DNA of 64,000 nt. It comes from Microbulbifer sp. VAAF005. GTDB lineage: Bacteria > Pseudomonadota > Gammaproteobacteria > Pseudomonadales > Cellvibrionaceae. Within the stretch, counting starts at the first letter, position 1. Every line of letters begins with the position of its first letter. The translations under genes were made by a program, and so were the position numbers. Below are positions 8,966-57,851 of this stretch, in pieces. The stretch spans positions 4,707,001-4,771,000 of the forward strand of contig NZ_CP120233.1 in the NCBI RefSeq assembly GCF_030012985.1, given 5' to 3'. The notes beneath the pieces are model-generated. The model was not told the origin of the DNA. It was given only the letters and a program-made list of their open reading frames with translations, and did not search any database.

Positions 8966-10039
8966 GTGACGAAAAAAGTAATGATTCTGCCGGGTGACGG
9001 CATTGGTCCGGAAATTGTTGAACAAGCCATGGCGGTGCTGGAAGTTGCATCGGGAAAATTCAATCTGGGGCTCAGCTTTGAGCAGGGCCTGATTGGTGGC
9101 TCATCTATCGATGCCCACGGTGAGCCTCTGACCGACGAAACTCTGAAGGCGGCGGGTGACTGCGATGCGGTGCTGCTCGGCGCTGTAGGCGGCCCCCAGT
9201 GGGATACCCTGGAGCGGGAAATTCGCCCGGAAAAAGGCCTGTTAAAAATTCGCAGCGGACTGGGCCTCTACGCAAATCTGCGCCCGGCGATTCTCTACCC
9301 GCAACTGGCCGATGCCTCTTCGCTAAAGCCTGAAGTGGTCGCCGGCTTGGATATTCTGATTGTGCGCGAATTGACCGGCGGCATTTACTTTGGTGAGCCG
9401 CGCGGTATCAAGACATTGGAAAATGGTGAGCGTCAGGGCTTTAACACCTACGTGTACAGCGAATCAGAAATTGAACGCATTGCCCGCTCTGCCTTTGAGG
9501 CGGCACAAAAGCGCAATGGCAAACTCTGTTCTGTAGACAAAGCCAATGTACTGGAAGTGACAGTACTCTGGCGCGAGGTGTTGGATCGCCTGGCTTCGGA
9601 ATATCCCGATGTAGAGCTGTCCCATATGTACGTGGACAACGCGGCGATGCAATTGGTGCGGGCGCCCAAGCAGTTTGATGTGATGGTAACTGGCAATATG
9701 TTTGGCGATATCCTCTCCGATGCTGCCGCCATGCTTACCGGTTCCATTGGTATGCTGCCCTCCGCCTCCTTGAACGAAAGCGGTTTTGGTCTTTACGAGC
9801 CCTGCCATGGCTCCGCTCCGGATATTGCTGGCCAGGGTATCGCCAACCCACTGGCGACTATTTTGTCTGCTGCCATGATGTTGCGCTATTCCCTCGATAT
9901 GAATGAGGCCGCAGATGCGATTGAAGCAGCAGTGAGCAAGGTGTTGGAGCAGGGTTTGCGCACTGCCGATATTTATACCGGCGGCTGCCAGAAAGTCTCT
10001 ACCGCAGAGATGGGCGCTGCCGTTGTAGCCGCACTTTAA
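8966..10039 (+). CDS. leuB: 3-isopropylmalate dehydrogenase
   Basis: 357 residues beginning at GTG with an AAAGGA site 10 bases upstream. It oxidatively decarboxylates 3-isopropylmalate to 2-oxoisocaproate with NAD. The nucleotide/substrate motifs are [13 protein letters not shown] near the N-terminus, [23 protein letters not shown] (substrate arginines), the K189-type region [15 protein letters not shown], and [26 protein letters not shown]. The C-terminal [20 protein letters not shown] adenine loop is intact. Third gene of the leuCDB unit; 99 bases separate it from asd. Confidence 0.98.
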
Positions 10040-10086
10040 GTTTCGATTCCACAAGTTTCGAAACCGCAATTTTCGATTCCACTATC

Positions 10087-17164: not shown

Positions 17165-17773
17165 ATGCAAGTAAAAATATGCGGCATCACTTGTATAGAA
17201 GATGCCCTGATGGCTGTAGATGCAGGTGCCGACGCGTTGGGCCTGGTATTTTATAAGCCGAGCCCGCGCAATATCGATCTTGATATGGCAGCTAAAGTTG
17301 CAGCGGCAGTTCCCCCATTTGTCACCCTGACGGGGTTATTTGTCGATGCGGCACAGAGTGAGGTGGACGCTGTACTGGAATCGGTGCCGCTTAACCTGTT
17401 GCAATTCCACGGCGATGAAAGTGCCCGTTTCTGCGAACAATTCCGGCGCCCCTATATCAAAGCGTTGCGGATGAAAGATGACCTCGATGTCAAAGCCGCA
17501 ATGACTGAGCACCCCAAAGCCCGGGGCTTTCTATTGGATGCCTACAGGCCCGGTATCCCCGGTGGTACCGGAGAGACCTTTGATTGGGACAGGGTTCCCC
17601 AAGATAGCAGTCGCCCGATCGTTCTTGCCGGTGGCTTGAATCCCGCGAATGTAACTGCAGCAGTAGAAGCTGCGCGCCCACAGGGGGTGGATGTGAGCGG
17701 AGGTGTAGAGCGTCAGCCGGGACGCAAGGATCGAGAAAAAGTTTTTGCGTTTGTCAGCGCTGCGAAGAGATAG
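17165..17773 (+). CDS. trpF: Phosphoribosylanthranilate isomerase
   Basis: 202 residues, a complete TIM barrel. It converts N-(5-phosphoribosyl)anthranilate to the deoxyribulose phosphate intermediate of tryptophan synthesis. KICGIT at residues 4-9 carries the catalytic cysteine (C6), FLLDAYRPGIPGGTGETFDW carries the acidic partner and phosphate loop, and LAGGLNPANV and VDVSGGVE close the barrel. In Pseudomonas trpF sits next to accD; here trpB and trpA are between them, and a 133-bp repeat array separates trpF from trpB. Confidence 0.97.
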   Translation: MQVKICGITCIEDALMAVDAGADALGLVFYKPSPRNIDLDMAAKVAAAVPPFVTLTGLFVDAAQSEVDAVLESVPLNLLQFHGDESARFCEQFRRPYIKALRMKDDLDVKAAMTEHPKARGFLLDAYRPGIPGGTGETFDWDRVPQDSSRPIVLAGGLNPANVTAAVEAARPQGVDVSGGVERQPGRKDREKVFAFVSAAKR

Positions 17774-17790
17774 ATTTAGAGGCGGTACCG

Positions 17791-18302
17791 GAAGTGCCGC
17801 CCGCCGGCTTGGCCGGCGCGAGCCAGCAAATACCAGCAGATCGACGCATCTGCGCCAGTATTTTCTGGCGACGTTTGAATAGTTCAGGGAGAACTACGGC
17901 TAATAGTATTGAAGCGGCACAGGGAAGTGCCGCCCGCCGGCTTGGCCGGCGCGAGCCAGTAAATACCAGCAGATCGACGCATCTGCGCCAGTATTTTCTG
18001 GCGACGTTTGAATAGTTCAGGGAGAACTACGGCTAATAGTATTGAAGCGGCACAGGGAAGTGCCGCCCGCCGGCTTGGCCGGCGCGAGCCAGTAAATACC
18101 AGCAGATCGACGCATCTGCGCCAGTATTTTCTGGCGACGTTTGAATAGTTCAGGAAGAACTACGGCTAATAGTATTGAAGCGGCACAGGGAAGTGCCGCT
18201 CGCCGGCTTGGCCGGCGCGAGCCAGCAAATACCAGCAGATCGATGCATCTGCGCCAGTATTTTCTGGCGACGTTTGAATAGTTCAGGAAGAACTATTCAA
18301 AC
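17791..18302. repeat. Tandem array of 133-bp hairpin-rich units (3 full, 1 partial)
   Basis: Units begin at 17791, 17924, 18057 and 18190, each exactly 133 bases apart and nearly identical; the fourth stops after about 110 bases. Differences are single substitutions (for example GGGAGAACT against GGAAGAACT). Every unit contains several short inverted repeats: GCCGGC-TT-GGCCGGC, CAGAT-CGACGC-ATCTG nested inside AAATAC/GTATTT, GCCAG-TATTTT-CTGGC, AGTTC-AGGGA-GAACT, and GCGGCAC-AGGGAA-GTGCCGC at the unit junction. The length is not a multiple of three and stops occur, so it is non-coding. It fills the 580-base trpF-trpB spacer. Confidence 0.95.
18272..18302. other. Perfect 13-bp palindrome ending the repeat array
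   Basis: GTTTGAATAGTTC, loop AGGAA, GAACTATTCAAAC. In the internal copies only the inner AGTTC/GAACT pairs remain because the right arm reads CTACGGC. The terminal copy therefore either preserves the original full element end or acquired it. No T-run follows directly, so it is not a standard terminator. It lies 51 bases before trpB. Confidence 0.85.
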
Positions 18303-18353
18303 AGTAGGTAAACAGAAAGAAAGTTTTAACCCACGTGACCACGGAGTATGAGT

Positions 18354-19571
18354 GTGAGTAAGCCAGGTGCTATCGATTTTTCCACCTTCCCGGATGCGAG
18401 CGGACATTTTGGTCCCTACGGCGGTCGCTTTGTATCGGAGACGCTGATCAGCGCATTGGATGAGCTTCAGGCAATGTATAGCCGCCTGAAAGATGATCCG
18501 GATTTTGTCGCTGCCTTTGATCACGATCTGGCGCACTACGTAGGCAGGCCATCGCCGCTGTATCTTGCTGAGCGACTGACTGAGCAGGCGGGCGGTGCGC
18601 GAATCTGGCTTAAGAGGGAAGATCTGAACCATACCGGTGCGCACAAGGTAAATAACACGGTGGGCCAGGCACTGCTGGCCAAACACAGCGGTAAAACCCG
18701 TGTTATTGCCGAAACCGGCGCTGGTCAACACGGTGTGGCTACGGCAACCGTGGCAGCGCGTCTCGGTTTGCAGTGTACGGTTTATATGGGTGCGGAAGAC
18801 GTTAAGCGCCAGTCCCCCAACGTATACCGTATGAAACTGCTCGGGGCAGAAGTGGTGCCGGTGGAATCCGGCTCCAAGACCCTAAAGGACGCCATGAATG
18901 AAGCCATGCGCGATTGGGTAACCAATGTCGATAATACTTTCTACATTATCGGCACTGTGGCTGGTCCTCACCCTTATCCGCAATTGGTGCGCGACTTCAA
19001 CTCTATTATCGGCCGTGAAGCCCGTCGCCAGAGTCTGGAGCGCTTTGGCCAGTTGCCCGATGCGCTGGTGGCCTGCGTCGGTGGTGGTTCCAATGCGATT
19101 GGCCTGTTCCACCCGTTCCTGAATGACGCTGAAGTGAAAATGTTTGGTGTCGAAGCCGGCGGTGAAGGCCTGGCTTCTGGTAAGCATGCTGCACCACTGA
19201 ATGATGGTATTCCCGGTGTTCTGCACGGTAACCGCACCTACCTGATGGAAGATGATGACGGCCAGATTATCGAGACTCACTCGGTTTCTGCGGGGCTCGA
19301 CTACCCGGGTGTTGGCCCTGAGCACTCTTGGCTGAAAGATATCGGCCGGGTGGAATATGTCACCGCCGATGATGATGAAGCCCTGGATGCCTTCCGTCGA
19401 CTCACTCGCACTGAGGGTATTTTGCCGGCATTGGAATCCAGCCATGCAGTCGCGTACGCGCTCAAGTTGGCGGCTTCCATGAGCCCTGAGCAGAATGTCC
19501 TGGTGAATCTCTCCGGCCGAGGCGATAAGGATATTTTCACCGTTGCCGCTATTGACGGTATCGAGGTGTAG
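18354..19571 (+). CDS. trpB: Tryptophan synthase beta chain
   Basis: 405 residues from GTG at 18354. An in-frame ATG lies six bases earlier (18348), but GGAG at 18343-18346 is 7 bases from the GTG and only 1 from the ATG, so GTG is preferred. It condenses indole with serine using pyridoxal phosphate. The PLP lysine is in HTGAHKVNN, the ammonium/substrate loop in [13 protein letters not shown], and the phosphate cradle in [19 protein letters not shown] and LSGRGDKD close both ends. It follows the 133-bp repeat array and precedes trpA by 92 bases. Confidence 0.98.
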
Positions 19572-39988: not shown

Positions 39989-40420
39989 ATGAATAAACTG
40001 ATAGGGCTGTCAGTACTGGCGTTAAGTCTTGGTTTTCCACTCGCACTGCAGGCGGAAAGCAGCAGTGGGGGCGATGGACACGATCACGGTGACCATATTG
40101 AAAATCGACTTGACCGCAAGGGGGATCGTATTGAAGATCGCCTGGATGAGAAGGGTGACCGTATTAACGAGCGCTTGGATCAGCGGTCTGAGCGGGCGGC
40201 AGCTAATGGGAGAGATAAATTAGCTGCACATTTGGATAAAAAAGGTGATCTTATCGATAGTCGTCTGGACAATAAAGGTGAGAAAATTAACGAGCGCCTC
40301 GATGAAAAGGGTGAGCGAATAGATAATAGATATGATCGTAAGAATGAGCGCGGCGAGCGGAAAAAAAGCACCACCGCAGATCCCGTGACAACGATAACGA
40401 TTAATCATTACCGGTTTTAG
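39989..40420 (+). CDS. Exported protein of 11-residue coiled-coil repeats
   Basis: 143 residues from ATG 39989, chosen because GGAG lies 6 bases upstream and a signal peptide follows directly (MNKLIGLSVLALSLGFPLALQA). The mature part begins with a metal-binding-like GGDGHDHGDH, then about seven degenerate units of the form (N/E/D)-x-R-L-D-x-K-G-(D/E)-(R/K)-I, an eleven-residue periodicity expected to give a highly charged coiled coil. The C-terminus (TTITINHYRF) is distinct. I do not recognise a family. It lies upstream of a MITE-like element and an ECF sigma operon. Confidence 0.75.
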   Translation: MNKLIGLSVLALSLGFPLALQAESSSGGDGHDHGDHIENRLDRKGDRIEDRLDEKGDRINERLDQRSERAAANGRDKLAAHLDKKGDLIDSRLDNKGEKINERLDEKGERIDNRYDRKNERGERKKSTTADPVTTITINHYRF

Positions 40421-57197: not shown

Positions 57198-57851
57198 TAA
57201 ATGGCTTAGGAGGTTTTTGGGTGTAATAAAGGATAGAATTACGAAGTAGAGATTTAATCGCAAATGGTTATATCAGGACATTTTTCCAGTCATCGGCTTA
57301 TGAGTAGACGATGGCTGCTTAGAAAGAATAGGTGACAATGGTAGCTACTTATGCGACTTTAATGATTGATAGACAGAAAAAACGCTAGGAATGATTTTAT
57401 TAAAGAGCGAATGAGAAACTTATGAGTCATAGCGTAGGAGAATGATCTTGGATGCCTATACTGAAGCAGTCGGCTTGTTGCTAGGCCCCAAAGTGCAACG
57501 ACTGAACCTTACTGGATAGGCTTGGAGTTTGTATGAATAGTGGATCCCTACTAGTACAAAACAAGTTCTGTATAAAATATATTTTGAAATTTAGCATGGT
57601 GTGTTTATATGTTGGCACGGTGATCATTGTATGTTGGCAGTGACATGTATGACTTATCGAATAGTAAATGTGTCTTTGAATGCTGTGTCTCATTAACCAG
57701 TCAATAGATTGTTTAGTGCTTCTTAGAGAGCTACAGGAACACTTTAAATGATTTAATTGTAGATGGTAGTTCCAGATGAGCTTGTTGTCGGATTTTAGCG
57801 TGAGCGTTGCTGTATTTGAGTCTTGGATATATTGGCAAAGGGAGTGGCTCG

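Follow-up and report, generated by a model that had tools for sequence, protein, structure and literature searches.

A tandemly expanded, structured intergenic repeat with CsrA-type hairpin loops between trpF and trpB of Microbulbifer

Introduction

Bacterial interspersed repeats are mostly regarded as passive sequences or as terminators. Among the families described, the ERIC/IRU repeats of enterobacteria are given a length of 127 bp in PMC2759123, which is close to that of the unit studied here. For RNA hairpins recognised by CsrA/RsmA proteins, the binding-site account in PMC7652899 reports an ANGGAN hexaloop bound by RsmE, the SELEX site RUACARGGAUGU with its AC and GU paired, a CsrB repeat of the form CAGGA(U/A/C)G and a CsrA bridging range of 10-63 nt, and allows that CsrA may bind poorly to sites in very stable stems. 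Most genomes carry a single CsrA, and Legionella has the highest average number in the survey reported in PMC7366521.

Here we describe a tandem array in the trp operon of Microbulbifer sp. VAAF005, found in a 64,000-nt stretch of contig NZ_CP120233.1 (the window). In our reading, to which we assign a probability of roughly 0.6, a mobile intergenic repeat of Gammaproteobacteria, similar to a MITE or BIME and carrying CsrA-docking hairpins, has had its core expanded locally in tandem to give the array.

Results

Four near-identical units lie between trpF and trpB

The array occupies the gap between trpF (17165-17773, + strand; PF00697, PRAI) and trpB (18348-19571, + strand; PF00291, open reading frame from the ATG at 18348), with trpA following trpB. 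TRF reported one array there, at 17790-18295, with a period of 133, 3.8 copies, 98% matches and no indels. An ungapped repeat search gave three successive 240-nt windows that were 98-100% identical at an exact spacing of 133 nt; between windows one or two units apart the identity was 98-99%. Both methods bear out the first-pass annotation, which had placed four near-identical units at this spacing between the two genes. TRF also listed short tandem repeats elsewhere in the window, at 10038-10082 (period 15), 40118-40180 (period 33) and 57608-57651 (period 22).

All four units are on the + strand: unit 1 at 17781-17913 (model R1 match at 17781-17909, 103 bits), unit 2 at 17914-18046 (model match of 112 bits), unit 3 at 18047-18179 (114 bits) and unit 4 at 18180-18302 (147 bits). 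Alignment and flanks show a conserved tail, AGTAGGTAAACAGAAA, directly after unit 4 (18303-18318, + strand); it is the 3' terminal repeat of this lineage, and other lineages have AGGTTAATAG. The GGAG of the trpB ribosome-binding site (18343-18346, + strand) falls within an ANGGA motif (ACGGAG), and its GGA lies 54 nt from the last GGA of the array. After the GGAG box (18348-18356), relatives have GTGAGTAAGCC in common and not the ATG, so trpB probably starts at the GTG at 18354.

Each unit folds into four covarying hairpins

Folded as a whole, the array reaches -251.5 kcal/mol, compared with -186.3 ± 6.1 kcal/mol for shuffled sequences (z = -10.7). Folding of units 2 and 4 gave four stable hairpins per unit, and not the five or more that had been proposed from the sequence. 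In unit 2, folded alone, these are hairpin 1 (17914-17933, loop AGGGAA), hairpins 2 and 3 (17935-17951 and 17955-18002) and hairpin 4 (18013-18029, loop AGGGA), all on the + strand. The corresponding + strand positions in unit 4 are 18180-18199, 18201-18217 and 18221-18268 for hairpins 1, 2 and 3, and 18272-18302 for hairpin 4 (loop AGGAA). Unit 4 is the more stable (z = -7.7) because its hairpin 4 is a perfect 13-bp stem; this stem is cut to 6 bp at the beginning of the next unit in unit 2, as seen in the fold, and in units 1 and 3, as seen in the sequence. Unit 3 has the loops AGGGAA (hairpin 1) and AGGAA (hairpin 4), and unit 1 has AGGGA in hairpin 4. A(N)GGA is kept in seven of the eight hairpin 1 and 4 loops of the array, the exception being hairpin 1 of unit 1, where loss of the leading A leaves CGGAA.

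An unfitted alignment of 36 copies supports this structure. In it, 87.1% of cells pair (72.4% when shuffled), both sides have changed in 35 of 44 pairs, and the covariation score is 0.400 versus 0.154. Sliding the partners by 1-3 columns lowered pairing to 37-41%, a comparison that favours the proposed over the slid pairing because the structure was derived from one of the 36 aligned sequences. All 13 pairs of hairpin 4 show changes on both sides in these copies. On the + strand, G-U pairs outnumber A-C mismatches by 59:34 in the unfitted alignment and by 154:84 in the model-fitted alignment A3. Most of the excess stems from hairpin 3 (26:8 unfitted, 73:23 in A3), and in A3 hairpin 1 shows the opposite balance (16:21). 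It points to single-strand folding of the + strand, as RNA or as single-stranded DNA.

The local fold at the trpB start region is ordinary (z = -1.3). Between 17600 and 18500 we found no sigma-70-like promoter site at the array and four terminator-like sites, all on the - strand; with none on the + strand, a classical attenuator is unlikely.

The unit belongs to a dispersed family

A DNA search with the unit found matches in 33 of 48 genomes of the genus and 41 of 144 of the family, so that the unit is present elsewhere and is not, as the first-pass annotation had allowed, peculiar to this site. Among named records, the core pattern occurred in 11 stretches, from Microbulbifer donghaiensis, okhotskensis, variabilis and sediminum, Halomonas (three) and Parahaliea (one). 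We then used a structure model built from 36 copies, out of the 51 remaining once near-duplicates had been removed from 60 matches. It detected the element in at least 41 of 48 genomes of the genus (E 0.01), at least 26 of 390 sampled genomes of the order (E 0.001; 8 of the 26 belong to the genus) and at least 28 of 369 sampled genomes of the class (E 0.001; own genome included), all lower bounds because scoring was limited to 66 or 8 candidates in each genome. Model matches below about 35 bits are doubtful; five weak ones (L115, L116, L117, L147 and L148, 29-34 bits) were left out of the orientation, flank and loop counts and of the sense/antisense comparison, and kept in the overall G-U count.

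The element is low-copy in its own genome. At the DNA level the unit occurs at the trp array only (E 0.001), and four of the six structure-model matches are the array itself. Of the remaining two, L150 (48 bits) has a MarR gene on one side and cytochrome bd oxidase genes on the other, and L151 (44 bits) lies between an rmlD-like and a nucleoside hydrolase gene. These unrelated neighbours speak against a trp attenuator or a T-box/TRAP-like leader, to which location is the one feature that points. No Rfam riboswitch or leader reached its gathering score either, and we consider such a leader extremely improbable; as a general explanation the attenuator is refuted, the + strand having no terminator-like site.

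No Rfam family reached its gathering score in the window, nor, apart from three tRNAs, in 13 further loci. RsmV (RF04320) gave a weak match of 27.9 bits (E 5.7e-6), below its gathering score of 100. Phage and plasmid origins were each considered and rejected: the core pattern had no matches in viral contigs, blastn of a Halomonas copy against phages returned none, and neither did blastn searches of plasmids with a single unit, the Halomonas copy and a copy of the other type. A literature search, with most subscription papers and supplements outside its scope, retrieved no account of the element or of its loop-1 or end sequences; repeats published solely in supplementary material, like those of Pseudomonas fluorescens to which PMC2718517 refers, could be related. 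The observations describe a widespread, covarying and apparently mobile repeat family, tandem-expanded at trp, that we met in none of the sources searched.

Complete copies carry terminal inverted repeats

The core consists of the four covarying hairpins. Many copies have an extra hairpin upstream of hairpin 1 (the first hairpin), and complete copies add to the core both this hairpin and terminal inverted repeats, which read CTATTAACCCGGCA / TGCCGGGTTAATAG in one lineage set and TTAAGGAAGCTCTGA / TCAGAGCTTCCTTAA in another. Complete copies thus have the inverted ends of a MITE; the trp units have the 3' end only. Compared with a reversed-pattern control, ends were found 27 to 0 times in G135, 29 to 1 in G450 and 1-4 to 0 in four other genomes. 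Outside ends of the GGAAGCTCTGA type, identical 4-mers flank 6 of 11 copies (shuffled mean 1.5), the 11 being those with a readable 5' end among 17 tails of that type; the end positions were fixed after a first count had shown nothing (25 of 44 letters equal, 23.4 when shuffled). For the CTATTAACCCGGCA type, the Microbulbifer-type ends, we saw no target duplication. Inspection by eye revealed no end pairs at transposon distance among the matches listed, and no mobilising transposase was found. At a second locus, in G036, the element is missing from seven aligned relatives, whose intergenic sequence has diverged so that the junction is unreadable.

First hairpins also occur alone, as dispersed, REP-like sequences of about 34 nt that start with TATTAACYYGGCAA and have no core (L242, L245, L248, L254, L258 and L259). 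With matches of 32-35 nt, they fall within the 20-40 nt of the many dispersed palindromes that define REP/BIME sequences. REP sequences also carry a 5' GTAG/GGAG tag, and a GTAG lies 3' of hairpin 4 here, not 5'. One copy, L244, has an internal deletion. A 525-bp version in G450 (L240, 1199-1723) has the same ends and, after a degraded core, about 340 bp more than a complete copy. The suggestion that the array might be REP/BIME-like is supported in kind: this is a dispersed, structured and partly tandem intergenic repeat with terminal inverted repeats in many copies. It is very probably a mobile interspersed repeat, and its apparent mobility is argued by the terminal inverted repeats, the matching 4-mers and the absence of the trp element from 19 of 30 relatives.

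In arrays elsewhere (L053, L015, L017 and L021), cores are parted by one tail-like repeat. The trp junctions look alike, for example ACGGCTAATAGTATTGAA at 18162-18179 (+ strand), a tail-like copy in the sequence. Because one such repeat separates the cores, the arrangement suggests tandem growth by recombination between direct repeats. A downstream gene that faces the element ends at the same tail position in 15 of 69 cases, as if the tail supplied that gene's stop codon.

Hairpins 1 and 4 keep ANGGAN-type loops

Loop bases were tallied in 162 distinct copies, of which 134 form a hexaloop in hairpin 1 and 145 form a penta- or hexaloop in hairpin 4. In the 134 hairpin 1 hexaloops, the first position is A in 125, the second is variable (G76/A23/T23/C12), G, G and A follow in 128, 125 and 125, and the last is again variable (T90/A26/C12/G6); a further 15 copies have 5-nt loops, with lower conservation. 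The 104 hairpin 4 pentaloops read A (94), G (100), G (97), A (92) and a variable last base (C49/T26/G16/A13), and the 41 hexaloops have A in 38, a variable second base and GGA in 41, 38 and 40. A and GGA are thus conserved to about 88-100% in these loops, with variable N positions. The hairpin 2 loops of the 162 copies have no ANGGAN-type pattern. When CA(N)GGA(N)G was required, a stricter pattern scored in 158 copies, no more than 112 keep hairpin 1, 107 keep hairpin 4 and 79 keep both.

By sequence, hairpins 1 and 4 present the ANGGAN loop in a hairpin that characterises CsrA/RsmA elements, and they match the ANGGAN, SELEX and CsrB-repeat consensus as set out in PMC7652899. Because the loop of both is conserved as ANGGAN or AGGAN, in most cases with a C-G closing pair, we read the + strand RNA as a putative CsrA/RsmA dock, and CsrA-family binding is the probable reason for which the loops are kept.

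The element has no preferred orientation

Among 144 arrays or single copies, 48 lie on the same strand as their neighbours (sense) and 51 on the opposite strand (antisense), with no bias; 19 more are between divergent genes, 15 are between convergent genes and 11 have a side missing. Neighbours were called with our own codon-usage gene caller, unchecked against annotation; a cruder earlier caller gave a noisier tally of 32 same/same, 32 opposite/opposite and 38 'inside' out of 149. The count of 48 versus 51 rules out a strict mRNA-sense element as a general rule. Both loops are intact, by the stricter pattern, equally often in sense (27 of 56) and antisense (26 of 55) copies. With orientation unbiased and loops equally intact, a function in host mRNA does not explain the loops of most copies.

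The G-U to A-C ratio is 83:34 in sense copies, 66:52 in antisense copies (not significant) and 55:32 in other contexts. Sense and antisense differ by Fisher's test with p = 0.02, uncorrected for relatedness, the aligned copies being relatives and so not independent. Since loop integrity is equal in both orientations and the G-U excess is strong in sense, selection acting on the element itself probably preserves the loops, and transcription in place probably contributes to preserving the structure.

These counts bear on two other accounts. One is a CsrA-free element for mRNA processing or stability, whose hairpins would protect the trpBA transcript or bring about differential expression, a role that REP elements can play. 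It would fit the strong, covarying hairpins found inside a single operon and the fact that, where both neighbours were called, 99 of 133 copies or arrays lie between co-directional genes, but it leaves unexplained both the conserved loop bases and the presence of the same loops in antisense copies; we judge it improbable. The other is a mobile small-RNA gene akin to RsmX/Y/Z/V, in which every unit makes its own CsrA-antagonist RNA. It would be expected to be free in orientation, its hairpin 4 resembles the CsrB repeat CAGGA(U/A/C)G, and there is the weak RsmV match of 27.9 bits. That score is far under 100, however, the trp array has neither a sigma-70-like promoter nor a + strand terminator-like site (17600-18500), and copies often abut stop codons, which together make a small-RNA gene quite improbable.

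The trp element marks one clade with many CsrA matches

We read the trpF-trpB region in 30 of the 48 genomes of the genus, with one genome per species. One unit is present in G029, G043 and G040, two in G045, G031, G044, G021 and G009, and four in the own genome (G000) and G030; G038 has at least two, the contig edge being reached. The other 19 regions have no unit and gaps of -10 to 120 nt. In a trpB tree of the 30, the 11 element-bearing genomes form one group (support 100/100), which corresponds to one change. Copy number, expected at first pass to vary between strains, is variable at the level of species, with 1, 2 or 4 units at this site. In G029, whose TrpF is 99% identical, the one unit combines hairpin 1 of the first unit with hairpin 4 of the last. 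Unit number therefore changes fast, possibly by contraction in this pair. The ANGGA at the trpB ribosome-binding site was not created by the element, because element-less relatives such as G008 and G020 have the same motif.

The 11 trp-element genomes are exactly those with 5-27 CsrA (PF02599) matches: 27 in the own genome, 5-19 in the other ten and 0-2 in the remaining 37 genomes of the genus. The trp element and the high CsrA number coincide as a single phylogenetic event. Among 25 listed of the own 27, one is 94% identical to canonical CsrA and 24 are divergent at 55-69%. The CsrA-family matches of this genome (L282-L300) are outside the window; eight of them lie in two clusters with transposase genes, one of which also has a gene with a pre-toxin domain.

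At least one CsrA match was found in 42 of the 48 genomes. The other six (G036, G017, G023, G032, G033 and G047), five of which are single-contig assemblies, had none, and a second search gave nothing below E 0.35. G036 nevertheless has 17 element matches. Among copies from four of the genomes that lack a CsrA match, 7 of 14 keep both loops; the figures are 6 of 15 at the trp clade loci and 37 of 85 elsewhere. Loop decay, expected under the CsrA reading, was not seen in this small sample of 14 copies. That reading is also weakened by the loops lost under the stricter pattern, by the hairpin 3 source of most of the G-U excess, by the single event behind the clade link and by the possibility that very stable stems suit CsrA poorly. 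The lack of orientation bias and the retention of the element in genomes without a CsrA match stand against it as well.

Both would suit a plain selfish MITE/BIME, whose hairpins and loops serve transposition or are passengers, with CsrA irrelevant and the trp array a neutral tandem duplication. The terminal inverted repeats with IS-like 4-mer duplications agree with it, as do loops of the same integrity both ways and an element tied to no single gene function. Nothing in a DNA-level MITE interior, however, would require that ANGGAN loops, with the bases contacted by CsrA conserved, persist on a single strand in both of two hairpins and with two types of terminal repeat, and the G-U excess over A-C on the loop strand also runs against it. 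We regard the purely selfish account as rather unlikely.

Discussion

We favour a mobile repeat with CsrA-docking hairpins. Under this model, the + strand RNA of the element would be a docking site for CsrA/RsmA. The element lies in the trp mRNA in the sense direction, and a CsrA dimer could there connect hairpin 4 of a unit with hairpin 1 of the unit that follows, at a distance of 32-33 nt, or the last hairpin 4 of the array with the ribosome-binding site of trpB, at 54 nt. Both spacings are inside the 10-63 nt reported in PMC7652899, and the predicted layout is similar to that of glgC, described there as a hairpin site plus the ribosome-binding site. The result would be that trpBA translation or stability is tied to free CsrA, or that CsrA is titrated. 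CsrA binding and its effect are both read from sequence features, and a real effect of the array on trpBA seems doubtful.

A broader proposition, which we advance tentatively and put at somewhat less than even odds, is that the payload of the family is a pair of CsrA/RsmA-docking hairpins, tying genes into the Csr network or draining it wherever the element has landed. The same core would ride on two or more transposon chassis whose ends are unrelated, and would have been amplified in the trp operon of one Microbulbifer clade in parallel with a CsrA expansion that reached as many as 27 paralogues. If true, the family would preserve, throughout a class and with differing terminal repeats, the code by which a global RNA-binding protein recognises its targets, and transposons in bacteria would be disseminating regulatory sites at the RNA level. 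The trp array is a testable case, with 1, 2 or 4 units occurring naturally in close species and an unusual CsrA expansion in the clade.

Several known systems share parts of this design. The YTAR-GGAAGCTCTGAATAAG ends of one lineage type are, we presume, close to the IS5 end, and with matching 4-mers at 6 of 11 copies they recall IS5-family MITEs; in the present element, by contrast, a structured interior is conserved and common to copies with different ends. Hairpins with A(N)GGA loops are shared with the CsrA-sequestering RNAs of the CsrB/RsmZ type, whereas the present element is dispersed and mobile, and we saw no stand-alone gene with promoter and terminator.

We know of no CsrA-type loops in BOX elements. 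Those of Streptococcus pneumoniae, as presented in PMC3049150, are likewise modular and RNA-structured with a variable number of internal units, but belong to another phylum; this comparison is by description. REP/BIME sequences and REPINs with RAYT, as portrayed in PMC2817692, PMC3116915 and PMC3733652, are short dispersed palindromes like the solo first hairpins, which are scattered through genomes that also have the element; the present element is a larger composite. The TAACTGA repeats of Beggiatoaceae are also intergenic, and Csr binding was weighed by their authors, but they are unstructured heptamers without GGA for which, in the discussion given in PMC4679880, canonical CsrA binding was judged unlikely. 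The ERIC/IRU repeats, again compared by description, are similar in length, intergenic, palindromic and non-autonomous; the present element differs from them in having four separate hairpins, two of them with ANGGAN loops, and in forming tandem arrays.
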